Shown here: in pieces, positions 28,598 through 44,321 of the stretch
Numbering within the stretch: the stretch's first letter is position 1
Layout of the letters: each line of letters opens with the position of its first letter
Assembly: GCA_943788145.1 (NCBI GenBank)
Contig: CALSPD010000016.1
Span: 1 to 64,000 of the forward strand
Reading direction: 5' to 3'
DNA: 64,000 nt
Origin: an uncultured Flavobacteriales bacterium
GTDB taxonomy: Bacteria; Bacteroidota; Bacteroidia; Flavobacteriales_G; Salibacteraceae
The notes under the pieces: model-generated
Told to the model about the DNA's origin: nothing
The model's database searches: none
The model's input: only the letters and a program-made list of their open reading frames with translations
Position numbers and translations under genes: made by a program

Positions 28598-29549
28598 AAC
28601 GTTGGATGCTTTGGTCCTGAACAGAAATGATACAGACATCGCCATCAATCACCACATCCGTCAAATCGAGTCCATCTTCAAAATCATACCACATCCATTT
28701 TTCGCCATCTGGGCTGTGGGCGAAAGCGCCATTATTCGCGACTATCATCCAATTTGAACCATCACTCATTATTCGATTTGCTCCGCGCACAGTTTTGGAT
28801 TTGCAAACGGTTTCCCAGCTTTCGCCACCATCCACAGATTTCATCACATCTCCTTCATAGGTGACCAACCAGCCTGTTTTTAGGTCTGCGAAATAGATGT
28901 CGCTGATGAAAGTACGGGAAACCTCTTGTTGCGTCCATTTCGTTTCGCCCTTTGATCTTTTGATCAGCATACCATCTCCCCCAACCCAGGCCGACCAATT
29001 GGAAACATCGCCAGCTGTGCAAAGGCCTCTAGCCTCGTGCTCAAATTCAAATTCATCCCAAGAATTGGCAGAGTCTGAACTGTGAAAGACCACACCAAAT
29101 GCCAGTTTACCCCCCGCAATTAAAAAATGTTCATTGCCTACTTGTGCCAATCTTCGAATGGGATTTTTATTGAGATCACTTACCCAATCGGTTTCGCGCC
29201 ACCAATAGTCATAGAAAACTTGAAGGCTATCGCTGTGAATGAGTTGAAGCGAATCGAGGCCAAACCACCACCTGCCGTTTATGAATTTGGCGTCATATAC
29301 TTCACGAGGTAAACTTTCCGTGCGAACATTAAATTGAGTCAGGTATTTGTCTGACTCGACCACAAAACCCTTAGCATTTACATTGCCTCCGGCAAAGACA
29401 TAGCCATTCGAAGTGGGCTCGATGCAACGCACCTTGCCTTGAACGGGCAGCACAATGGTGTCGAATTCAAAGCCTGTTTTGTCCTTTTGACAAGCCGTTG
29501 CGATCAATACCATGAAAACCAAGAAATAGCGAATATTGCCTCGTGACAT
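28572..29549 (-). CDS. Lipoprotein with BNR/beta-propeller-like repeats
   Basis: VFMVLIATACQKD lipobox; SIDGGESWETV-like repeats (SVDGGESWETVCKS, HSPDGEKWMWY). Confidence 0.6.
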   Translation of the reverse strand: MSRGNIRYFLVFMVLIATACQKDKTGFEFDTIVLPVQGKVRCIEPTSNGYVFAGGNVNAKGFVVESDKYLTQFNVRTESLPREVYDAKFINGRWWFGLDSLQLIHSDSLQVFYDYWWRETDWVSDLNKNPIRRLAQVGNEHFLIAGGKLAFGVVFHSSDSANSWDEFEFEHEARGLCTAGDVSNWSAWVGGDGMLIKRSKGETKWTQQEVSRTFISDIYFADLKTGWLVTYEGDVMKSVDGGESWETVCKSKTVRGANRIMSDGSNWMIVANNGAFAHSPDGEKWMWYDFEDGLDLTDVVIDGDVCIISVQDQSIQRFSFSALKN

Positions 29550-29592: not shown

Positions 29593-30939
29593 ATGAAGGA
29601 AGCGGAAACGATCGTTGCATTAAGCACGCCTCAAGGCGAAGGAGCCATTGGCATCATTCGGCTTTCCGGGCCAAATGCGGTGAAGTTAACGGCACGACAC
29701 ACCAATGCATCGTTATTGAACGCTGCGGCCAACAGCGCGGTTTTTAGTCGCTTTCGAATTAATGAAGTGATTTTAGACGAAGTAGTCGTTACCATTTTTA
29801 AGGCGCCAAAATCCTACACAGGTGAAGACGTTTGTGAAATCTCTTTTCACGGATCGGCTTTCATTCTGAATCAGGCGCTTGAAGCTTTGTTGGAATCGGG
29901 TGCGCGATTGGCCACACCTGGTGAGTTTACTCAACGCGCGTTTTTGAATGGGAAAATGGATTTGAGTCAGGCAGAAGCCGTGGCCGATTTGATCGCTTCT
30001 GAGTCCGAAGCGGAACATCGCCTCGCCATGCATCAAATGCGCGGTGGGTTTTCGCGCGAGATTGCTCAATTGCGTCAAGAACTGATCAATTTCACCAGTC
30101 TGATTGAATTGGAGCTCGATTTTGCCGAAGAAGATGTAGAGTTTGCCAATCGCGATCAACTGAAAGCCTTGATTCAAAAAATTCAAGCTTACATCCAAAA
30201 ACTTGTTGACTCCTTTCGTTATGGCAATGCCGTAAAGCAGGGAGTTCCGGTTGCTATAATTGGTCAGCCAAACGCAGGAAAATCAACCTTGCTCAACTTG
30301 CTATTAAACGATGACAAAGCCATCGTTTCTGAAATTGCAGGTACTACCCGCGATGCGGTGGAAGACATTTGCATTGTAGAGGGCATTCGATTTCGCTTCA
30401 TCGACACGGCTGGAATCCGAGAAACAACAGACATTATTGAAGCCATTGGCGTCAAGAAAAGTTTGGAGAAAATGCGTGGCGCGGCCATTGTCATTTACCT
30501 CTTTGACGCCCGCGAATCGAAAGAAGAACATATTGGTGTACTCGATAAATTGAATCTGGAAATGGATCCAGCCACAGTAGTCATTGCTGTTGCGAATAAG
30601 ATCGACCTGTCGGATAAATCTGCTCTAGCCGACATTCAGCTTTCGGCCAAAACGGGCGAAGGACTGGACCAGTTGCGCAGGCTGTTGGTTGACTCCATTA
30701 AAACGGGTTCGGTTAAATCAGGCGATGTCGTAGTGACCAACGCACGCCACTTACAAGCGCTAAAAGCGACAGGAATTGCGCTAGATGCTGCGCTTCACGG
30801 CATTGAAAGCGGCTTATCGGGCGATTTGGTATCATCAGACATTCGCGAAGCACTGCACCAACTCGGCTCGATAACGGGTGAGATCAGTGCAGAAGAGCTG
30901 TTGGGTAACATTTTTGGGAAGTTTTGTATCGGAAAGTAA
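29593..30939 (+). CDS. mnmE: tRNA uridine-5-carboxymethylaminomethyl(34) synthesis GTPase MnmE
   Basis: ETIVALSTPQGEGAIGIIRLSG; GQPNAGKSTLLN; C-terminal GNIFGKFCIGK; start set at internal Met. Confidence 0.95.
   Translation: MKEAETIVALSTPQGEGAIGIIRLSGPNAVKLTARHTNASLLNAAANSAVFSRFRINEVILDEVVVTIFKAPKSYTGEDVCEISFHGSAFILNQALEALLESGARLATPGEFTQRAFLNGKMDLSQAEAVADLIASESEAEHRLAMHQMRGGFSREIAQLRQELINFTSLIELELDFAEEDVEFANRDQLKALIQKIQAYIQKLVDSFRYGNAVKQGVPVAIIGQPNAGKSTLLNLLLNDDKAIVSEIAGTTRDAVEDICIVEGIRFRFIDTAGIRETTDIIEAIGVKKSLEKMRGAAIVIYLFDARESKEEHIGVLDKLNLEMDPATVVIAVANKIDLSDKSALADIQLSAKTGEGLDQLRRLLVDSIKTGSVKSGDVVVTNARHLQALKATGIALDAALHGIESGLSGDLVSSDIREALHQLGSITGEISAEELLGNIFGKFCIGK
30922..30939 (+). repeat. 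Left direct repeat (putative attL core) TTTTGTATCGGAAAGTAA
   Basis: 17/18 identical to 37112..37129; encodes FCIGK* of mnmE. Confidence 0.85.
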
Positions 30940-30980
30940 CCACCACAAAACAAACAAACACAAAACCCATAGAAACCACC

Positions 30981-31006
30981 AAAGCCCTCTAATACTGGGC
31001 TTTTTT
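30981..31006 (+). terminator. Probable intrinsic terminator just inside the element
   Basis: AAAGCCC-TCTAATACT-GGGCTTTTTT. Confidence 0.6.
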
Positions 31007-31160
31007 AATATTTAAACTATACGTTTCTTTTGTGTTAATATTGTTTTTCGTGTAATATTTGTACCTTTATTGTACCTTCATAGGTTGAGGTCAAAATTTG
31101 CTACCCATTTTTTTTTAGCATAATTGACACTTTAAACACTTAACACACTACAGGCACAAA

Positions 31161-31757
31161 ATGAGTATCAAATATTAAGTACAACGTATTTGCCAGCATT
31201 GCGGTAATGAGTTCACAGCACGAACAACCGTACCACAGTTACTGTTCGACAACGTGCAGTAAGGCAGCGTACAAAGCAAGAAAACGGGCTGAAAAGGTTG
31301 AGCAAGCAATAAGCGAAACCCAGCGAATAAAAACCAACCTATTGAGAACTGAAAGCCAAAGAGTTTTTAAGTCTGAGGTTGCCAGTTTAATTAATAGCTC
31401 AGTTCGTACTGTTTAACTTAGCAAACGGAACTAAAAGCACATAATATTGGAAAAGAAACCTTGTTAAGCGTTCCAGATTGACAAAGCTATTTAAAACCAG
31501 CACCGAACACCTAACGACCTGCAACACCGAACAAAAGAGTTTGATATTTCAGAATGTTACAACCTTACCAAGTACAAAGCAAATACGGTATTTCAGAAAA
31601 CCTTACACAACCTTATCAAACGAAACAGCATACCCAAAATAAAGAAAGGGCTGGTTCGCTTACGTTCCGAAACAGCGTATTGATGAATTATTAACGTACA
31701 ACAAGTTTTTTTCAGCCGTTCACAATTTTCACGGTTTTCACGAAGAGCATAAAAGAC
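31161..31757 (+). pseudogene. Zinc-ribbon/HTH protein remnant (frame-disrupted)
   Basis: Peptide pieces in different frames: MSIKY*VQRICQHCGNEFTARTTV, SYCSTTCSKAAYKARKRAEKVEQ, LKAKEFLSL, VASLINSSVRTV; in-frame TAA at 31176. Right boundary approximate. Confidence 0.6.
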
Positions 31758-31758
31758 A

Positions 31759-32901
31759 ATGGCAACAAAAGTTAAGTTAAGACAAAAGGCAATTTCAGGG
31801 AACAGGCAAAGCCTGTATTTGATTTTTACCCACCCATACCACACCCCGAAACAGGCGAACCAACCCGAAGGGAATTTTTAGGCTGTACATTTTCGAGATA
31901 AGGCTAAAACACCCTATTGATAAACAGCACAATAAAGAAACTTTACAGCTTGCTGAACAGATAAGGCAAAAACGTGAAAACCACTTAAACAAACCTGAAA
32001 TTTACACAGGGTACGAAAAGGAGCAACTAAGATTAAAGGAACTGGGCGAACAAATTTTGTTTGACCTACTTTCAAAAGCCTTGCCGACAAACGCAAAGCC
32101 AGTAACCACGATAACTGGGTTTCAGCATACAATTACCTTGAAACATTTACAAAGGGAAATTTGAAGTTTGCCGACCTCAACGAAAAGTTTTGTAATGAGT
32201 TCAAAGAGTATTTACTCACTACCAAAAGCAATAAGAGCAACAAAACAACCCTTGCCCAAAATTCAGCCGTTTCCTATTTCAATAAGCTGAAAGCAACTTG
32301 AAACAAGCCTATAAAGACGGTATTTTAACCACGACCTAAACGCAAAATTGAACCAATAAAACAGGCAGAAACCAAGGAAACTTTTTAACCATTGAGGAAC
32401 TGAACAGCCTTGTAAAAACAGAATGTAACAACCCTTTATTGAAACGTGCAGCCCTGTTTTCAGCCCTCACAGGGTTGAGGTTTTCAGATATTAAAAACCT
32501 TGTTTGGGGGCGAACTGGAATACATTGAGGGCAACGGGTATTTTATACAGTTCAAACAACAAAAAACCAAAGGGGTTGAAATGATGCCTATTTCTGAACA
32601 GGCTTACAGCTTACTGGGTGAACCCAAAGAACCCACCGACAAAGTATTTGAGGGGCTTACTTATTCAGCATACGAAAACAAACACCTATACCAATGGATT
32701 GGAGCAGCAGGAATAACAAAGGATATAACCTTTCATTGTTTCAGGCACACGTTTGCCACCTTGCAACTATCAAAGGGAACGGATATTTACACCGTTTCCA
32801 AAATGCTGGGACACCGTGAACTGAAAACCACACAGATTTACGCAAAGATTATTGACCAAACCAAACGTGAAGCAGCCGACAAAATTAAATTGGATATGTA
32901 A
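31759..32901 (+). pseudogene. Tyrosine recombinase/integrase broken by multiple single-base indels
   Basis: Reconstructed text MATKVKLRQKAISGNRQSLYLDFYPPIPHPETGEPTRREFLGLYIFENKAKTPIDKQHNKETLQLAEQIR; intact C-terminal ORF 32500..32901 with HCFRHTFATLQLSKGTDIYTVSKMLGHRELKTTQIYAKI. Confidence 0.85.
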
Positions 32902-33554
32902 TGAAACAGAAAAAAGATACAAGGTTTTGGCTTACCACCTTTTTTGAGGAACAGGAACAAACCAAACACCCTTACAAAAGTTTCAAAAGGGAAATTGAAA
33001 ACAACGGCTGTTTTAAAGTGAAAACAGACACGGACACCGTAAAGATATACACCCCTGAATTAGCCGTTATTTTTACCTCAAAGGAATTGCCAGCCCGTAA
33101 TATGGACACCCAAACAGAAACAACAATAAACGGCTGGGATTACCTAAATACATACATTGAAACATACAAAGAGGGCGAACAATATTTTGAAACTGAATTT
33201 AAAGTTTCACCGAACACCCTTTACGGGGCAAACGCGGAACAGTATGTAAGGGATATTCACTTAAACTTTTTTCACGTTCAGCATACGGGAGCAAATGAGG
33301 GCTGGGGCTATGTTAAGAAACAATACCCGTTTATATTAACCCATAAAGCTGTAAAGGAATTTGGCTACTATTCAGGAATAGTAAACAAGGTTGAGGAACA
33401 AGTAAAGAAATACCCCCGACTGTTTGCCACCTTTGATAAATGCGAACACAATTTACCACCTCAACAAACTGAAACGAAAACAGAGCAGGAAACCGAAAAT
33501 GATTTTACCCTTTCCACTATTGAGGATTGGTTATTTGAGTTTAAAGAAAAATGA
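32901..33554 (+). CDS. Hypothetical element-encoded protein
   Basis: Uninterrupted 217-aa ORF immediately after int; no motif recognised. Confidence 0.6.
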   Translation: MKQKKDTRFWLTTFFEEQEQTKHPYKSFKREIENNGCFKVKTDTDTVKIYTPELAVIFTSKELPARNMDTQTETTINGWDYLNTYIETYKEGEQYFETEFKVSPNTLYGANAEQYVRDIHLNFFHVQHTGANEGWGYVKKQYPFILTHKAVKEFGYYSGIVNKVEEQVKKYPRLFATFDKCEHNLPPQQTETKTEQETENDFTLSTIEDWLFEFKEK

Positions 33555-33836
33555 ATAATGCAGACTATCAAAATTTAGTTTCAGCATTGATACAATACTT
33601 TTGAAACTGGAATATTCCCGACACTTTCAAAAGCTATTCAAGTGAATGGCAGACTAAACAAAAAGCTGTTCGGCTGGGCTTTGAATAGAATATTTGAAGC
33701 GAAAGGCAAAGGAATTGAAAAGGAACTTTTGCAATTTGCAAAGCAAAATATTTCATTGTTTACCGATGTTCAGTTTGATGAAACCAATATTTTGAAAAGC
33801 AATTTGTATAAGTATTTCACTACTCAAACCAAGTAA
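33551..33836 (+). CDS. Small hypothetical element protein with a frameshift at about 33599
   Basis: MNNADYQNLVSALIQYF then ETGIFPTLSKAIQVNGRLNKKLFGWALNRIFEAKG after removing one T from TTTT. Confidence 0.5.
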
Positions 33837-33928
33837 ATAAAGGTCGCCACCAAAACCACCGAAAACACTTTTTAGACCACCAAAACCACTTTGTTTGTTT
33901 GCTGCATAACTTTTAAAAATGTAGCAAA

Positions 33929-34255
33929 ATGAATAACCCATTTGAAGTAATTGAGGCAAGGTTAAACATTATTGAAACCTTATTGCTCGACCTCAAACAC
34001 ACACCAAAAGAGCAAGGCGAACAACCCGAAACAGACGAACTTTTAACTGTTCAGGACACGGCTAAATTTTTGAGCCTTTCAGTTCCCACCGTTTACACCT
34101 TAATTAGTAAAGGCGAATTGCCAGTAATGAAGCGTTCAAAACGCTGTTACTTTTCAAAGGTTGAGTTAATCAATTATTTGAAGCAAGGCAGAAAAAAGAC
34201 GTTGGCAGAAACAGCCAGCGAAGCCGAACAATATTGTAAAACTAAAAAGGGGTAA
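33929..34255 (+). CDS. Excisionase-family helix-turn-helix DNA-binding protein
   Basis: LLTVQDTAKFLSLSVPTVYTLISKGELPVMKRSKRCYFSKVELINYLKQG. Confidence 0.85.
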   Translation: MNNPFEVIEARLNIIETLLLDLKHTPKEQGEQPETDELLTVQDTAKFLSLSVPTVYTLISKGELPVMKRSKRCYFSKVELINYLKQGRKKTLAETASEAEQYCKTKKG

Positions 34256-34258
34256 GCT

Positions 34259-35389
34259 ATGCAGGAACATAACAACACCCCTAATAAGTTAAGCACTAAA
34301 GACGGGGACAAAGATACAAATTTAAACACCATTACCCCAGCGTTTGAATTTGATAAATACGGTATCGGGGTTGAGGATATTAAAACCGAAGCCGAACAAC
34401 TTTTAAAGCAAGGAAACGAAGCCAAAGAAAGTAAAGGACTGTTCACCGTGAAAACAGCCAGCCGTTGGATTGAACAGGCGAAAACCCGACCTATTCCGCA
34501 AATGCTTTTTGGTGAACTTTGGTTTGAGGGTGAACTATGTATTTTGTTTGCCGACACCAATTTAGGTAAGTCAATTTTAGCCGTGCAAATTGGTAACAGC
34601 ATAAGCAAGGGCGAACAGATTCGGGGCTTTAAATTGGAAGCGCCAAAGCAACCAATTCTGTATTTTGATTTTGAGTTAAGCGACAAACAATTTGAAAACC
34701 GATATTCAATAAAGTTTGAAAAGCATTACAATTTTGATAACAACTTTATACGGGTTGAAATAAACCCCGATGCCGCTATACCCGAAGCCCAAACCTTTGA
34801 GGATTACCTCAACCATTCATTGGAGCGAAGTATTACCGAAACAGGGGCAAAAGTTTTAATCATTGACAACCTTACTTACCTCAAAAATGAAACTGAAAAG
34901 GCTAAAGATGCTTTGCCCTTAATGAAACATTTGAAAGCCTTAAAAAACAAATACGGGCTTTCAATTTTAGCACTTGCACACACACCCAAAAGGGACTTAT
35001 CAAAACCAATTACCCGAAATGATTTACAAGGCAGTAAGATGCTAATAAACTTTTGTGATAGTTCCTTTTCAATAGGTGAAAGCCACAGCGACAAAAATTT
35101 ACGCTACCTGAAACAGATTAAGCAACGGAACACCGAACAAATTTACGATGCTGAAAATGTTTGTGTTTGTCAAATTGACAAGCCCCTCAATTTCCTTTTG
35201 TTCGAGTTTGTGAATTTCGGTAAGGAATGGGAACACCTGAAACAGCACACCGAAAAGGACAAGGAAAACCTGAACGAACAGGTAAGCGAACTAAAGCAGC
35301 AAGGGCGAAGCCTTCGGGAAATAGGGGCTGAACTGGGTATTTCTCACATGAAAGTAAGTAGAATTTTAAAGGACTGTAACACCCTGTAA
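34259..35389 (+). CDS. RepA-like AAA ATPase (AAA_25-type)
   Basis: ELCILFADTNLGKSILAVQIGNSISKGEQI Walker A; VLIIDNLTYLKNE Walker B-like; C-terminal HTH LREIGAELGISHMKVSRILKDC. Confidence 0.85.
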   Translation: MQEHNNTPNKLSTKDGDKDTNLNTITPAFEFDKYGIGVEDIKTEAEQLLKQGNEAKESKGLFTVKTASRWIEQAKTRPIPQMLFGELWFEGELCILFADTNLGKSILAVQIGNSISKGEQIRGFKLEAPKQPILYFDFELSDKQFENRYSIKFEKHYNFDNNFIRVEINPDAAIPEAQTFEDYLNHSLERSITETGAKVLIIDNLTYLKNETEKAKDALPLMKHLKALKNKYGLSILALAHTPKRDLSKPITRNDLQGSKMLINFCDSSFSIGESHSDKNLRYLKQIKQRNTEQIYDAENVCVCQIDKPLNFLLFEFVNFGKEWEHLKQHTEKDKENLNEQVSELKQQGRSLREIGAELGISHMKVSRILKDCNTL

Positions 35390-35429
35390 CAACTGTAACA
35401 CCCTGTTACAAGTGTTACACCCGTTACAC
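35374..35429. repeat. Clustered TGTAAC / GTTACA hexamer repeats
   Basis: CTGTAACACCCTGTAACAACTGTAACACCCTGTTACAAGTGTTACACCCGTTACAC. Confidence 0.8.
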
Positions 35430-35442
35430 TAAAGAGGTAAAA

Positions 35443-36718
35443 ATGATTGAACACCGATACATATTAGAACCATACAAGGGAATGAATACCCGTTACCGTT
35501 GCCCAGCACCTAATTGCCGGCTAAGGGATAAAACCTTTTCGCTTTACATTGATACGGAAACAGGCGAACACATACACCCCACCGTTGGCAGGTGCAACCG
35601 TGAAAGTAATTGCGGACACCATTACACCCCGAAACAATATTTTCAGGATAACAATATTTCATTTGATACACCCCAGCCCAAAGCATACAAGCCCCGACCT
35701 GTTACACCTAAACCAAAGCCCGTTTCATTTATTCCCGTTGAGGTATTTAAAGCCAGCCTGAAAGCACACGAAAAGAACCACTTTGTAAAGTTTCTTATTA
35801 TCCTGTTCGGGGTTGAGATCGCCAGCCAACTGGTAAGCCGTTATTTTATTGCCGCCTCAAAACATTGGAACGGTGCAACGGTATTTTGGCAAATAGATAC
35901 ACAGGGCAAAGTAAGAACGGGTAAAATTATGCTTTACAGCCCCACCACAGGCAAAAGAGTAAAGAACCTTGAACTACCTGTTTACTGGGCACACAAAGCC
36001 CTTAAACAGCCTGAATTTGAGTTAAGGCAATGTTTGTTTGGTGAACACTTACTAATTGATAAAACAAAACCCGTTGCCATAGTTGAAAGTGAAAAAACGG
36101 CTGTAATTGCCAGCGTTTATTTACCCCAGTTTGTTTGGGTTGCCGTTGGCAGCCTTTCCAACCTGAACGCTGAAAAGTGCAGCATACTAAAGGGGCGAAC
36201 TGTTACGCTATTTCCCGACCTCAACGGGTTTGAGAAATGGAGCAACAAGGCAAAGGAACTTTCACACCTTGCAAATTTTACTGTTTCCGATTTATTGGAA
36301 CGCAAAGCCACCGAAGCCGAAAAGAAACAAGGGTTTGACCTTGCCGACTATTTAATAAAATACGATTACAAGACGTTTGTAATACCTGAGGCAACCGAAG
36401 CACCCCAGCCGTTCAACCGTTGGCTGAGGTGAAACCATTTGACAAACCGAACCTGTTTACTATTTCAGTAAGCCCGAACAACCAAAGCCCGAAAGCTGGG
36501 AACAGGATATTACCGAACTTGAAAACTACTTTTCGTCTTTTGAGTTACCGACCCAGCCCGTGAAGCTGAACCAAAGCAGCACAATAACGGATTGTTCCCT
36601 ATTCATTGAAAGCCACTTTGCCACCGTGAAGGGAAACAACGGAAACAAAACCTTTTTACCATACCTCAACCGCTTACGGGATATGAAAGCGGTAATTCAA
36701 AGTTCCCTAATTATTTAG
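35443..36718 (+). CDS. DUF6371-like zinc-ribbon/primase-like protein; C-terminus shifted by two indels
   Basis: RYRCPAPNCRLRDKTFSLYIDTETGEHIHPTVGRCNRESNCGHHYTPKQYF; continuation KPFDKPNLF and YYFSKPEQPKPESWEQDITELENYF in other frames. Confidence 0.65.
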
Positions 36719-36744
36719 GTTTTATATTCTAAAGAATAAACCAA

Positions 36745-37129
36745 ATGCCAAAGCCCCAAACATTCCCAGACCTGTACGATGATGCTTTGCAATTGAATAT
36801 TTCGAAGCTTAAAGAATGGGGCTATCTTGAGCAAGAACAAATAAAAAGCGGTACAATTAATTGGAGTAGCAGCGGAAACAAAAGAGGGAAGTATCTCAAT
36901 AAAGGTGAACGCTAAACGTGAACAACCCTTTATTAAGCTGGATTACAATTTCAGGGGCGAACACCGAAACTATTTAGTGTATTTGACCTCTATCCCTTCA
37001 AACCTGAATATTGGCGAAATATGGTACTTCATTTGCCCCCAAACAGACAAGCGATGCCGAAAGCTGTATTCAATAGGCGGTTACTTTTTACACCGTGAAG
37101 CATTCAAAGGCTTTTGTATCGGAAAATAA
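36745..37129 (+). pseudogene. Element protein, frameshifted and truncated at the right direct repeat
   Basis: MPKPQTFPDLYDDALQLNISKLKEWGYLEQEQIKSGTINWSSSGNKRG then SISIKVNAKREQPFIKLDYN...KRCRKLYSIGGYFLHREAFKG; last codons FCIGK* come from the repeat. Confidence 0.6.
37112..37129 (+). repeat. Right direct repeat (putative attR core) TTTTGTATCGGAAAATAA
   Basis: 17/18 match to the mnmE 3' terminus at 30922..30939. Confidence 0.85.
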
Positions 37130-39336: not shown

Positions 39337-39558
39337 ATGCCCTCGCAAGAAGAAGAGTTATTGAAGTTGGTTACCGTGAAAATGCCGTATGGCAAATTCA
39401 AAGACCGCTTGATTTGTGATCTACCGGTCAGTTATTTGGAATGGTTTGACCGCAAAGGCTTCCCTTCTGGAAAACTTGGAGAACAATTGCAACTCATGCA
39501 TACCATCAAATCCAATGGTTTGGAGCATATTTTATCTGGTTTAAAACGGCTGAAATAG
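39337..39558 (+). CDS. DUF3820-family protein
   Basis: VKMPYGKFKDRLICDLPVSYLEWFDRKGFPSGKLGEQLQ. Confidence 0.75.
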   Translation: MPSQEEELLKLVTVKMPYGKFKDRLICDLPVSYLEWFDRKGFPSGKLGEQLQLMHTIKSNGLEHILSGLKRLK

Positions 39559-39971
39559 TGGAACTCTCACCTCCCATCGTTTCCAAAACTCAATTTCACC
39601 AGCGCACCGGTCAGTTGATCGGGGCTCCCATCATTGTTACCGTTGCCATATTGATTTTCAGCAAAGCTCTAGCAGTTGGCATCACAGCGGGATTACTCTT
39701 AGCATTGAGCTTTTGGTTGAGCCTTCCAAGAAAGGTGATTCTCAATGACACGGACGTTCAGATCATCCATTTTTTTAAGACGATAACCATTCCATACCAT
39801 GATGTCATTGAAGTGCATCGAGCGAATCGCTTCATGGCTAAGGAAGATATTCTGATTATCGCTAGGGTGAAACACAAAATTCTTCGGCTTCCCTTTTCGG
39901 GTAAGGGCTTGGGAATGGAATCGCTGCTCGCTTTTTTCAAAGCTAAACACGTACGGGTAAATTCAATTTAA
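39558..39971 (+). CDS. Hypothetical membrane protein with PH-like region
   Basis: Two N-terminal hydrophobic segments, then a beta-rich region. Confidence 0.5.
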   Translation: MELSPPIVSKTQFHQRTGQLIGAPIIVTVAILIFSKALAVGITAGLLLALSFWLSLPRKVILNDTDVQIIHFFKTITIPYHDVIEVHRANRFMAKEDILIIARVKHKILRLPFSGKGLGMESLLAFFKAKHVRVNSI

Positions 39972-40945
39972 TGGCATTGAAGGCAGACTACTCCCCTCCA
40001 TTATTCCACAGGCATGTGCATTTCAGCACCATCATTCCAAATCGCTTTCGGAAAATACGGTCATTAACCTATCAGCGCCAAACGCTAAATACTCCCGATG
40101 GCGATTTTATCGATTTAGATGTATCTAGTATAGGATCGACCGGTTGCTTGCTTTTGCTTCACGGATTAGAGGGCAGCAGCCAATCGACTTACATGAAGGG
40201 GCTCGCAAAATATGCGAATGACCAAGGTTTTGACGCGGTAGCTATGAATCACCGAAGTTGCAGCGGCAAACCAAACAACCTCGCTATAAGTTATCATAGC
40301 GGCAAAACGGACGATGTTGCTGCGGTAGTTCAAGCGCTTTCTGCCACATATGAAAGCATCCATATCGTGGGGTTTAGCTTAGGTGGAAATATGGCTTTAA
40401 AGCTAGCGGGTGAATGGGCTCAAGCCCATCCTAAACAAGTCAAATCCGTTGTTGGTGTTTCTGTTCCTTGTGATTTGGCCAGTTCCGCGTTGAAACTTGG
40501 CTTGGCTGAGAATCGCATCTATCTCTGGCGATTTCTATCGCAATTGAAGGCAAAGGCAAGGGCTAAAGCCTTGCGTTTTCCCGATGCCAACTTGGATCTG
40601 AAACTCATCAAGCAAAGCGATACATTTAAAGCCTTCGATGATGCCTATACAGCTCCAGCCCATGGATTTCAATCTGCTGCGGACTATTATGAAAAATGCA
40701 GTTCAAAAGCTTTCATCCCGAACATAGAGCCTCCAACGCTGATTATCAACGCAAAGAATGACTCCTTTTTAAGTCCGTCCTGCTATCCGATAAATGAAGT
40801 GAATGAAAATCCAAATGTTGGGCTATTAATGCCAACTTTTGGCGGTCATGTAGGATTTGCAAGCGATTTTATGATGAACGAAGCGTTTTGGAGTGAAATC
40901 CAAATCATGGATTTCATAGCGTCCATTTCGAAGCCGAAAGACTAG
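39971..40945 (+). CDS. YheT-like alpha/beta hydrolase
   Basis: LLLLHGLEGSSQSTYMKGLAKYANDQGFDAVAMNHRSCSG; IVGFSLGGNMALKLAGE. Confidence 0.85.
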   Translation: MALKADYSPPLFHRHVHFSTIIPNRFRKIRSLTYQRQTLNTPDGDFIDLDVSSIGSTGCLLLLHGLEGSSQSTYMKGLAKYANDQGFDAVAMNHRSCSGKPNNLAISYHSGKTDDVAAVVQALSATYESIHIVGFSLGGNMALKLAGEWAQAHPKQVKSVVGVSVPCDLASSALKLGLAENRIYLWRFLSQLKAKARAKALRFPDANLDLKLIKQSDTFKAFDDAYTAPAHGFQSAADYYEKCSSKAFIPNIEPPTLIINAKNDSFLSPSCYPINEVNENPNVGLLMPTFGGHVGFASDFMMNEAFWSEIQIMDFIASISKPKD

Positions 40946-42942
40946 TTGTCCTTGTCGTCTAGATCTGACTCTACTTCTTCGTCCAATTCTTCGAAAATGG
41001 AATTCTTACTCAAAAACTCTGGTACCATGCGTTTCATTTTCGAGACAATCTTATTGTTGTCTTGGGTGTCGAACAGGCCAATGAGTTCCTCAATATCTGC
41101 CGAAACCTTTTCAAATTCATATTCACGAACCTTGGCAACCATGATTTTTTTATGATGAGTAGGCAGCGTGTTTTCCTCATCGTTCAACAGTTCCTCATAG
41201 AGCTTTTCACCCGGTCTTAATCCTGTAAAAGCGAGCTGAATGTCCTTGCCCAACTCTAATCCAGAAAGCTTGATCATCTTCTTCGCCAAATCGACAATTT
41301 TCACTGATTCGCCCATGTCAAAAATGAAAATTTCGCCCCCTTTCCCCATCGATCCCGCTTCGAGAACCAATTGGCAAGCTTCAGGAATAGTCATAAAGTA
41401 TCGGGTAACTTCAGCATGCGTAACGGTAAGTGGTCCACCCGCCAAAATCTGCTTTCGAAACAAAGGAATAACAGAGCCATTTGAACCCAACACATTTCCA
41501 AAGCGTGTGGTAATGAATTTGGTCGTTGAATCCGATTCACCTTTGAGTTTATTAAAAAGGGATTGCACGTACATCTCAGCGATTCGCTTCGAAGCGCCCA
41601 TGACATTTGTCGGATTAACCGCCTTGTCGGTTGACACCATGACAAATTCGCCCACGTTGTATTTTACGGAGAGATCGGCTAAGTTTTTCGTACCCAAGAC
41701 GTTGTTCAAAATGGCCTCGCTTGGATTCAATTCCATAATGGGAACATGCTTGTATGCCGCGGCATGATAGACAAAATCGGGTCTAAATGTGCGAAACACA
41801 TTCTCGAGTCGCTCTTTATTTCGAATGTCGCCAATGACGGTTTCATATCCCTGAAAACGTACGGTTTCCCTCAATTCCAACTCTAAGTCGAATAAAGGTG
41901 TTTCGGCATTGTCCAGTAAAATGATTTTTCGCGGTTTAAAGGGAATGATTTGACGCACCATTTCACTGCCAATAGAACCTGCCGCGCCAGTTATGAGAAC
42001 TGTTTTATCCGCTAATTGCTGACGAATGTTCTTCTTATCCAATTTAATGGGCGAACGCTCCAGCAAATCTTCAATTCTAATTTCCTTGAATTGATTAAAA
42101 CTCAATTCTCCATTGATCCATTTTGAAGCTGGCGGAACATCCAAAAGTCGAATGTTGTATTTCAAACACAAATCGACAAGTTTCTGTTTTTCAGATAGTT
42201 TAAGGTTAGTGTCAGCAAAAATCAACTGATCTACCTTTTCACCCTGAAATAGCTCTTCCAGTCTTTCTGAAGCATGATAAATCATAACGCCTTCCATGCG
42301 CTTATTGGCCAATTGGGGATTGGAGTCCACAAAGGCTACCACCTTATATCGACCACCTAAATCGCGATCGAGGGTCTTTTTAGCTATGTTGCCGGCTTCT
42401 CCAGCGCCATAAATAATGACGTAAGTTGGGTCTTGACTGACCTTGCGCATTTCATAATATAGAATACGAATGACTACTCGGAAACTTGCCATGAAAAACA
42501 TCATGAAGAAATAGTCGATGATGATGACGGAAAAGGGAACGATGTATTTCGTAGTGATATAAAGACTGACAATGTTAGACAGTGCCATAGCCACCGTTCC
42601 GAAGGTGACCGTGTAAAAGATTCGCACCCCGTCTTCCGTACTGGTATATTGAATAATTCCAGCGTATGTTTTAAAGATAACGAAGGACAAAATGCGCACA
42701 AGAATCACAAATGGAATGGCATAAGCCATATTCGCCAAGTGTTTATCCTCGAGATGGAAATTGAATCGCAAGAAAAAGGCTAAAAAAACCGAACACAGGG
42801 CGATGAAAATATCGATGGTGAAAATGCCCCATCGCGGCAACCGTCTACCTTCCCTGAAATAACTAACAATGCTCTGCATGAATGGAATAAAAGATCTTTC
42901 TGCGACAGCGAAAATGCACTTATTTCTCCTTATCCATCTCAA
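40942..42942 (-). CDS. Polysaccharide biosynthesis nucleoside-diphosphate-sugar epimerase/dehydratase (CapD/FlaA1-like)
   Basis: N-terminal TM domain; KTVLITGAAGSIGSEMVRQI; YHAAAYKHVPIMELNPSEAI; GLRPGEKLYEELL. Confidence 0.92.
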   Translation of the reverse strand: MRWIRRNKCIFAVAERSFIPFMQSIVSYFREGRRLPRWGIFTIDIFIALCSVFLAFFLRFNFHLEDKHLANMAYAIPFVILVRILSFVIFKTYAGIIQYTSTEDGVRIFYTVTFGTVAMALSNIVSLYITTKYIVPFSVIIIDYFFMMFFMASFRVVIRILYYEMRKVSQDPTYVIIYGAGEAGNIAKKTLDRDLGGRYKVVAFVDSNPQLANKRMEGVMIYHASERLEELFQGEKVDQLIFADTNLKLSEKQKLVDLCLKYNIRLLDVPPASKWINGELSFNQFKEIRIEDLLERSPIKLDKKNIRQQLADKTVLITGAAGSIGSEMVRQIIPFKPRKIILLDNAETPLFDLELELRETVRFQGYETVIGDIRNKERLENVFRTFRPDFVYHAAAYKHVPIMELNPSEAILNNVLGTKNLADLSVKYNVGEFVMVSTDKAVNPTNVMGASKRIAEMYVQSLFNKLKGESDSTTKFITTRFGNVLGSNGSVIPLFRKQILAGGPLTVTHAEVTRYFMTIPEACQLVLEAGSMGKGGEIFIFDMGESVKIVDLAKKMIKLSGLELGKDIQLAFTGLRPGEKLYEELLNDEENTLPTHHKKIMVAKVREYEFEKVSADIEELIGLFDTQDNNKIVSKMKRMVPEFLSKNSIFEELDEEVESDLDDKDN

Positions 42943-43004
42943 TTTGCTTCCAACTTATGAGTATCTGCCTTTTTATTAGCCGCTAATGCCTCGATGAACA
43001 TGCT

Positions 43005-44321
43005 TTGAACAACATGGCTTGCAAACTTTCTCGGAAGTTTATGGTTTGTTCTAAAAAAACACTGAACTTCCCCTCCGTGAATTTTAAAGAACTAGGACTA
43101 AGCGAAGCATTGATCGAATCGATCAGCTACATGGGGTTTGAATCGGCCACCCCAATTCAAGAGCAGGCCATTCCAAAAATATTAGACGGTAAAGACTTGA
43201 TTGCCTGTGCTCAAACGGGTACGGGAAAAACGGCTGCCTTTATACTTCCCATCATCAATAGACTGGCTGAAGGCAACTCAAAGGGAATAAACACGGTGGT
43301 TATCTGTCCAACCCGCGAACTTGCCATTCAAATAGACCAAGCCATCAACGGTTTCACCTATTTCACATCCATTTCATCTATTGCCATTTATGGCGGAGGA
43401 GATGGCGATGATTGGGACGCTCAAAAACGTGCGCTTACAAGTGGCGTTGACATTGTGGTCGCGACACCTGGGAAGTTTATTGCCCACTTGAACATGGGTT
43501 ATATGGATTTAACTACGATTAAACATGTAATTCTAGACGAAGCCGATCGCATGTTAGATATTGGATTCTTTGATGACATTTTGAGGATATTCAGCTATTT
43601 CCCAAAAAAGCGTCAAACCTTGATGTTTAGCGCGACAATGCCGAAAAAAATCCGGGATCTGGCGGAAGAAATTCTAAATGAACCCGATCAAATAAGCATT
43701 GCCGTTTCCAAGCCAGCCGAAGGTGTGGTTCAGTTGGTTTATTTGTGTTACGATCCGAATAAAACCAAATTCCTTCGCCACTTTATCGAAGAAAATCCGG
43801 CTTGCCAAAGCATCATCATCTTTAGTTCGACTAAACGCGAGGTGAATGAAATTGTGCGTGGACTGCGCAATCGCAACTATCGCGTTGAAGGCATTTCGTC
43901 TGACTTAAACCAAAGCCAACGCGAAGAGGTTTTGATCAAGTTTAGGGCTAAACAATGTCGTGTTTTGGTTGCAACAGACGTGATGAGTCGTGGAATCGAT
44001 ATCAAGGACATCAACTTGGTCATTAATTACAATGTTCCGAATGATGCCGAAGACTATGTTCATCGCATTGGAAGAACGGCACGTGCAGATACTACCGGAA
44101 TTGCTGTCACCCTCGTTAACGAAGAGGAAATGTATAAGTTCCTCCGAATCGAGCGACTGATCGAGCGAGAGATAGACAAACAGCCTATTCCCAAAGAGAT
44201 TGGCATCAGTCCAGAATGGAATCCAAATGCCAGCGGCAAGAAAAAAGGTGGTGGAAAAGGAAACGGAGGACGCAACTTCAAGAAAGGAAATTTCAAGAAA
44301 CGAGGTCCTAAACCTCAATAA
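43005..44321 (+). CDS. DEAD/DEAH-box RNA helicase
   Basis: CAQTGTGKTAAF, PTRELAIQ, LDEADRMLD, SATMPKK, HRIGRTARA; basic Gly/Lys tail. Confidence 0.93.
   Translation: MNNMACKLSRKFMVCSKKTLNFPSVNFKELGLSEALIESISYMGFESATPIQEQAIPKILDGKDLIACAQTGTGKTAAFILPIINRLAEGNSKGINTVVICPTRELAIQIDQAINGFTYFTSISSIAIYGGGDGDDWDAQKRALTSGVDIVVATPGKFIAHLNMGYMDLTTIKHVILDEADRMLDIGFFDDILRIFSYFPKKRQTLMFSATMPKKIRDLAEEILNEPDQISIAVSKPAEGVVQLVYLCYDPNKTKFLRHFIEENPACQSIIIFSSTKREVNEIVRGLRNRNYRVEGISSDLNQSQREEVLIKFRAKQCRVLVATDVMSRGIDIKDINLVINYNVPNDAEDYVHRIGRTARADTTGIAVTLVNEEEMYKFLRIERLIEREIDKQPIPKEIGISPEWNPNASGKKKGGGKGNGGRNFKKGNFKKRGPKPQ

Follow-up and report, generated by a model that had tools for sequence, protein, structure and literature searches.

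Behind mnmE in the 64-kb stretch of DNA analyzed here (hereafter, the window) lies a block of genes about 6.2 kb long, which raises three questions: whether it is an integrated mobile element, to what kind of element it belongs, and how such an element might move between hosts. Taking the evidence together, it is very probable that the block is a decayed copy of an integrative element specific for mnmE, built on a Tn4555-type backbone and without a recognizable MobC or relaxase. The comparisons with relatives presented below show where it inserts, how its att sites are built, how far its kind has spread in the phylum, and to which backbone it is homologous, and they show horizontal transfer and decay; catalysis, excision, replication of the circle, and the route of transfer are inferred.

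Unique 18-bp repeats bracket the element at the 3′ end of mnmE

The initial annotation had placed an element between two 18-bp direct repeats, the left of which forms the end of mnmE. These repeats (17/18 identical, 6190 bp apart; Table 1) are real, lie at the positions originally given, and are the only sites within three or fewer mismatches of the mnmE core on either strand of the 64-kb window. Across the whole assembly they are the sole exact matches to a degenerate form of the core, the next best match having 2 mismatches, and genome-wide matches at up to three mismatches are no more numerous than those to a reversed control pattern. The GC content is 39.3% in the element and 45.1% and 43.0% in the flanks. 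As judged from its open reading frame and Pfam domains, mnmE is left intact with the ending FCIGK*, and the 18-bp core is the set of codons for this conserved C-terminus of MnmE. Integration at the 3′ end of mnmE is thus borne out both by the uniqueness of the repeats and by the recurrence of the same arrangement in relatives. If the repeats had instead arisen by chance, or if the stretch were ordinary chromosomal sequence, the absence of an orthologous empty site would be accounted for; since the repeats are unique and the same arrangement is found in dozens of unrelated genomes, we give this reading a negligible probability.

Table 1. Features of the mnmE-associated element, in window coordinates
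Feature	Coordinates	Strand	Basis and remarks
mnmE/trmE, host target gene, intact	29593..30939	+	Pfam MnmE_helical, TrmE_N, MMR_HSR1; start codon approximate, ORF opens at 29536
attL core TTTTGTATCGGAAAGTAA, final 18 nt of mnmE	30922..30939	+	Repeat comparison
Left end of element, conserved, CCACCACAAAAC	30940..30951	+	Motif inside attL of most of 27 bounded loci
HTH pseudogene, frameshifted	31161..31696	+	tblastn with L086 and G005 proteins, matches in three frames; cluster c1
Tyrosine integrase pseudogene	31759..32901	+	PF00589 on open part; internal stops; indels relative to L086
orf2, split into 32901-33554 and 33642-33836	32901..33836	+	87.7% to 311-aa L086 protein
Excisionase-like HTH_17 protein, intact	33929..34255	+	PF12728; 98% to L086
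RepA-like AAA_25 / DnaB-like ATPase, intact	34259..35389	+	PF13481; phrog DnaB-like helicase; 95.7% to L086
DUF6371 primase-like protein with zinc ribbon	35443..36709	+	PF19898, PF21957; ORF to 36432, frameshifted remainder to 36709
Gene c5, frameshifted (36745-36915 / 36905-), truncated at attR	36745..37111	+	Comparison with relatives
attR core TTTTGTATCGGAAAATAA	37112..37129	+	Repeat comparison; lacks the GTTACT motif that precedes the core in most relatives

The copy in the window appears decayed

Of the genes first assigned to the element, the integrase, excisionase-type HTH protein, RepA-like ATPase, and primase-like protein stand, and with them the replication module (AAA_25 helicase-like and DUF6371 primase-like proteins). 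The small upstream open reading frames are instead pieces of one HTH gene, akin to the HTH_17 gene found upstream of int in 64 loci; the frame at 33642-33836, taken for a separate small gene, is a piece of the split orf2, for which family searches returned no match; and the ‘truncated gene’ at the right end proved to be c5, a gene that is conserved but here carries a frameshift and is fused to attR.

The element had been described as compact; its genes are those of a decayed copy rather than of a working element. Measured against the element of Flavobacterium cyanobacteriorum (L086) and that of a genome from the window's own genus (G005/L022), whose integrase is intact, the HTH gene, integrase, orf2, c5, and the C-terminus of the DUF6371 protein are all broken in the window, as read from assembly sequence, in which any of the frameshifts could be a sequencing error. 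Only the C-terminal 133 aa of the integrase (32500-32901) are open, and the DUF6371 frame is lost near the C-terminus, its continuation being found in another frame. The left end is canonical. At attR, the core comes directly after c5 codons (..EAFKG-FCIGK*), with GTTACT missing, while in several relatives c5 is about 70 residues longer and attR lies 110-160 bp past its stop codon, which argues that the right end of the window copy is truncated. The copy thus appears decayed and is probably immobile. Decay is also uneven along its length: compared with L086, substitutions affect 12-28% of the first kilobase (30940-31950), where frameshifting indels are numerous, whereas most of the remaining element is 3-10% substituted with few indels. 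Either the left end has been decaying for longer or it would have a different origin from the rest, and possibly the copy is a mosaic, with an old resident and a more recent arrival divided between 30940-31950 and the remainder.

Conserved ends of relatives suggest a recombination model

Candidate attL and attR sites about 6-12 kb apart were found at 27 loci, most of the bounded elements being 6-10 kb long; for the element in G005, a search over about 13 kb from mnmE gave no attR. The ends of these elements are conserved: at attR, the core is preceded by a TTAGTTACT-like motif, and at attL it is followed by CCACCACAAAAC. Such ends imply a putative attP of GTTACTTTTTGTATCGGAAAGTAAC, in which an 8-bp inverted repeat (GTTACTTT/AAAGTAAC) would surround the exchange region. 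Within the core, variation at position 3 mostly follows the host side at attL, whereas positions 12, 15, and 18 vary more at attR, a pattern that would place the exchange between them.

In the model that we propose, the element is site-specific, and its tyrosine integrase would use the final 18 bp of mnmE as attB. The circular form, in intact relatives, is predicted to carry an attP consisting of TTAGTTACT, TTTTGTATCGGAAAGTAA, and CCACCACAAAAC in that order, with a circle junction resembling GTTACTTTTTGTATCGGAAAGTAACCACCAC. Copies that appear intact are carried by cultured strains, among them Maribacter thermophilus HT7-2, Pedobacter sp. BS3, and Cyclobacterium roseum. The integrase would recombine this attP with the FCIGK* codons of mnmE, the exchange probably falling within about TGTATYGG, and mnmE would remain intact because the element restores its last codons and stop. 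Regulation and excision may fall to the HTH_17 proteins, and replication of the excised circle to the helicase-like and DUF6371 primase-like proteins.

The end of mnmE is an integration hotspot across Bacteroidota

A search of the genome collection with the G005 integrase as query yielded 80 loci from many Bacteroidota families, and at 72 of these the 3′ end of mnmE lies upstream of the related integrase, on the same strand and 176-2394 bp away. Gene order is conserved across the relatives' elements. When an even sample of 395 class genomes was screened, 53 genomes passed the integrase threshold (E<=1e-40), and in 41 of the 395 (about 10%, the window's own genome included) the integrase sits at mnmE. 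A tree of 138 integrases contains 105 at mnmE, 21 elsewhere, and 12 unplaced, and the window integrase falls within an 18-row clade composed entirely of mnmE integrases (SH-aLRT 98). The initial annotation had guessed at a hotspot in Bacteroidota; the counts at 72/80 loci and in 41/395 genomes make it larger than was guessed. The checks that it had named agree, in that homologues of the integrase do adjoin mnmE and the clade of the window integrase targets mnmE rather than other sites. Specificity is not absolute, given that 21 of the 126 placeable integrases lie elsewhere, that close kin occur off-site (e.g., L083 and L134), and that a second related element in the window's genome has another location. 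These 18 bp are the dominant attachment site of the Tn4555-related integrase clade across Bacteroidota.

For many Bacteroidota, the site provides a defined attB/attP pair for chromosomal insertion. It also marks the 3′ end of mnmE as a place in which islands can be sought; genes for metal efflux and restriction have been seen there.

A 77-kb viral contig (L173, IMGVR_UViG_3300028591_008352) carries a 40%-identical integrase 207 bp from the 3′ end of mnmE; from this contig, prophage-sized elements seem to use the mnmE site as well. The window's own genome contains a second related element (L003, contig C7, about 119056-124100), not at mnmE, with a broken integrase and a left junction, GTTACTTTTAATCTCGGAAAGTAACCACC, that is attP-like on both sides; a search for the attR of this second copy in contig C7 did not find one.

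Relatives point to recent horizontal transfer

Within the window's genus, an integrase of this family lies behind mnmE in three genomes (G005, G001, and G007), and no such integrase is present at mnmE in six others (G002, G003, G004, G006, G008, and G010). In G003 and G010, orthologues of window genes 39337-44321 follow mnmE at about 5-6.5 kb without an integrase, which supports insertion at mnmE in the window. The comparison of sister genomes suggested at the outset therefore supplied occupied sites and integrase-less mnmE loci within the genus but no exact empty site from the same species, and we infer the empty state from synteny and relatives.

Across seven compared loci, integrase DNA is 80-94% identical while host mnmE is 60-71% identical. 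The F. cyanobacteriorum element, also at mnmE, shares 92.5% DNA identity with the window element over 5.0 kb. At the protein level the two are 95.7% (RepA) and 98% (Xis) identical, and the hosts' mnmE proteins about 49%. To judge from these sequence identities, a recent horizontal transfer of the element is hard to avoid.

One mnmE element from the same genus (L056 / L121; G007, CAJQLE010000004.1) carries, instead of RepA, a rolling-circle gene that is Rep_1-like (cluster c14); the genes after it resemble CDF and RND metal efflux, and no attR was found within 13 kb.

The backbone is that of Tn4555-type mobilizable elements

Tn4555 has been listed as TnpA, integrase, TnpC, excisionase, AAA ATPase, and DUF6371 (PMC13183296). 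A circular record of 10,057 bp (CP103138.1) has this Tn4555-type order together with a mobilization protein and cfxA; its integrase, AAA, and DUF6371 proteins match those of the window, and HTH, integrase, Xis, AAA, and DUF6371 are homologous to members of the family. The shared order runs HTH, integrase, variable orf, excisionase, AAA ATPase, DUF6371, the first two being pseudogenes in the window. As far as can be read from these homologies, the window element shares its backbone with the Tn4555-type mobilizable elements of Bacteroides. Two differences stand out: Tn4555 has the mobilization protein and cfxA, whereas no relaxase was found in the window element, and Tn4555 prefers two sites through TnpA (PMC5704250), not mnmE. 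The pBUN2-type IME (NZ_AP019726.1), of which G145 and G368 have chromosomal copies, shares this backbone, here with a DUF3987 helicase. Both chromosomal copies are inserted at mnmE, but unlike the window element all three carry a relaxase (with MobC also in pBUN2 and G145). The integrases of these two mnmE relatives are almost identical to that of the copy on plasmid pBUN2, and the pBUN2-type integrase is about 43% identical to the G005 integrase.

In Gammaproteobacteria, trmE/mnmE is the home of SGI1-type resistance islands, and the window element is likewise integrated at the last 18 bp of this gene. For SGI1, attB is the final 18 bp of trmE/thdF (PMC2297512). SGI1 differs in being a 42-kb island mobilized by IncA/C plasmids, with other gene content. 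Because the core consists of the conserved FCIGK* codons and the closest known backbone is that of Tn4555, the resemblance to SGI1 that had first been noted does not imply kinship. Phage-inducible islands of the PICI and PICMI kinds resemble the window element in being small, with an integrase, an excisionase-type regulator, and replication genes but no structural genes. The window's kind differs from them in that its genes run in one direction, no helper is known, and neither a terminase small subunit nor a capsid-redirecting gene could be made out convincingly. The Riemerella 10K island, considered as a precedent for mnmE, sits in a tRNA-Arg gene and was set aside.

The kind of element, defined by its Tn4555 backbone, is thus already known; what appears to be undescribed, in the open-access literature, which leaves out most subscription journals, is that such elements are specific for mnmE in Bacteroidota and that they have a form without a relaxase.

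Right ends hold other genes in place of recognizable transfer genes

A tblastn search with six mobilization proteins found no relaxase or MobC in the window element or the bounded relatives, the sole match being in L139, outside the bounded set. Pfam searches of 61 accessory proteins gave none either, among the best 25 of 44 families. In the 27 host genomes searched for PF03432, the window's genome had no match, and no element match was reported beyond that of tblastn (record contigs not having been matched one by one). The initial statement that the window element has no visible relaxase, conjugation, or capsid gene is borne out, none having been found. Most of the relatives examined likewise have no recognizable genes for moving between cells on their own.

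Right ends hold instead c10, c5, c11, c13, TPR proteins, or restriction systems. Type IIG restriction-modification genes lie near attR of the mnmE elements L069 and L094, and a PvuII-type endonuclease and methylase near attR, probably in L115; such genes are defense cargo at the mnmE hotspot. Some of the other genes have phage connections. c11 has a relative in a phage DUF5681 protein, c13 has a weak match to the PHROG terminase small subunit (E=0.0012), and one relative has a phage-type helicase loader. On a 51-kb Bacteroides finegoldii plasmid (L225, NZ_OY725926.1), a c5 homologue has DnaB on one side and a VRR-NUC gene on the other, and a tail tape-measure gene lies downstream; this plasmid is probably a phage-plasmid with the c5 homologue in its early region. 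The predicted structures of c5 (pLDDT 84) and c10 (pLDDT 65) gave no viral fold match with E below 0.001, nor did that of c5 match any in the PDB; c5 and the consensus attP junction had no match in IMG/VR, and a c10/c11 profile confirmed nothing in viral contigs.

How might the relaxase-less form move?

A resident conjugative element could mobilize the relaxase-less elements in trans, by way of an oriT of their own or an unrecognized mobilization protein, in the manner of SGI1-like/MGI elements. The backbone is homologous to that of mobilizable Tn4555, the relaxase-bearing relatives in G145 and G368 are inserted at mnmE too, relaxases are encoded elsewhere in several host genomes, and there is precedent in known IMEs that lack a relaxase of their own and are mobilized by ICEs or plasmids (PMC5704250). 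However, no oriT was identified, and the window's genome and two carriers of the same genus have no PF03432 relaxase, that family being the one searched genome-wide. On balance we view mobilization in trans as quite conceivable, though short of probable.

It is also possible, if rather doubtful, that the relaxase-less subtype is a phage satellite, whose excised and replicated circle would be packaged by a helper phage as for PICIs and PICMIs. The lack of a detected relaxase or MobC in the window element and bounded relatives, the 6-10 kb size of most bounded elements, and recent transfer between families and orders are consistent with packaging, as are the c5 homologue among the early genes of the probable phage-plasmid from Bacteroides, which has a tape-measure gene, the phage affinities of c11 and (weakly) c13, the helicase loader, and the restriction systems near attR. 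The same idea must contend with the lack of any capsid or convincing terminase gene, the failure of c5 and c10 to match viral structures and of c5 and the consensus attP to match IMG/VR, the position of the c11-like phage gene, which is not adjacent to an annotated terminase, and the fact that no helper phage was identified. We think it somewhat unlikely that the relaxase-less mnmE elements make up an unrecognized, phylum-wide family of Bacteroidota phage satellites, with a Tn4555-type backbone, no mobilization module, and c5/c11 plus restriction systems at the right end. Whichever route applies, the family supplies natural relaxase-less elements by the dozen for studying how crossing between families and orders happens.

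Short fecal records labeled ‘Bacteriophage sp.’ were considered as evidence of packaging and rejected, since these records, which do carry the backbone, have the genes of Tn4555-type IMEs, in at least one case with a gene that looks relaxase-like by eye and position. Away from mnmE, L023 (G037:C65) has the same RepA and DUF6371 genes beside an unrelated-looking integrase, along with two more genes resembling, by eye, a VRR-type nuclease and a terminase small subunit.
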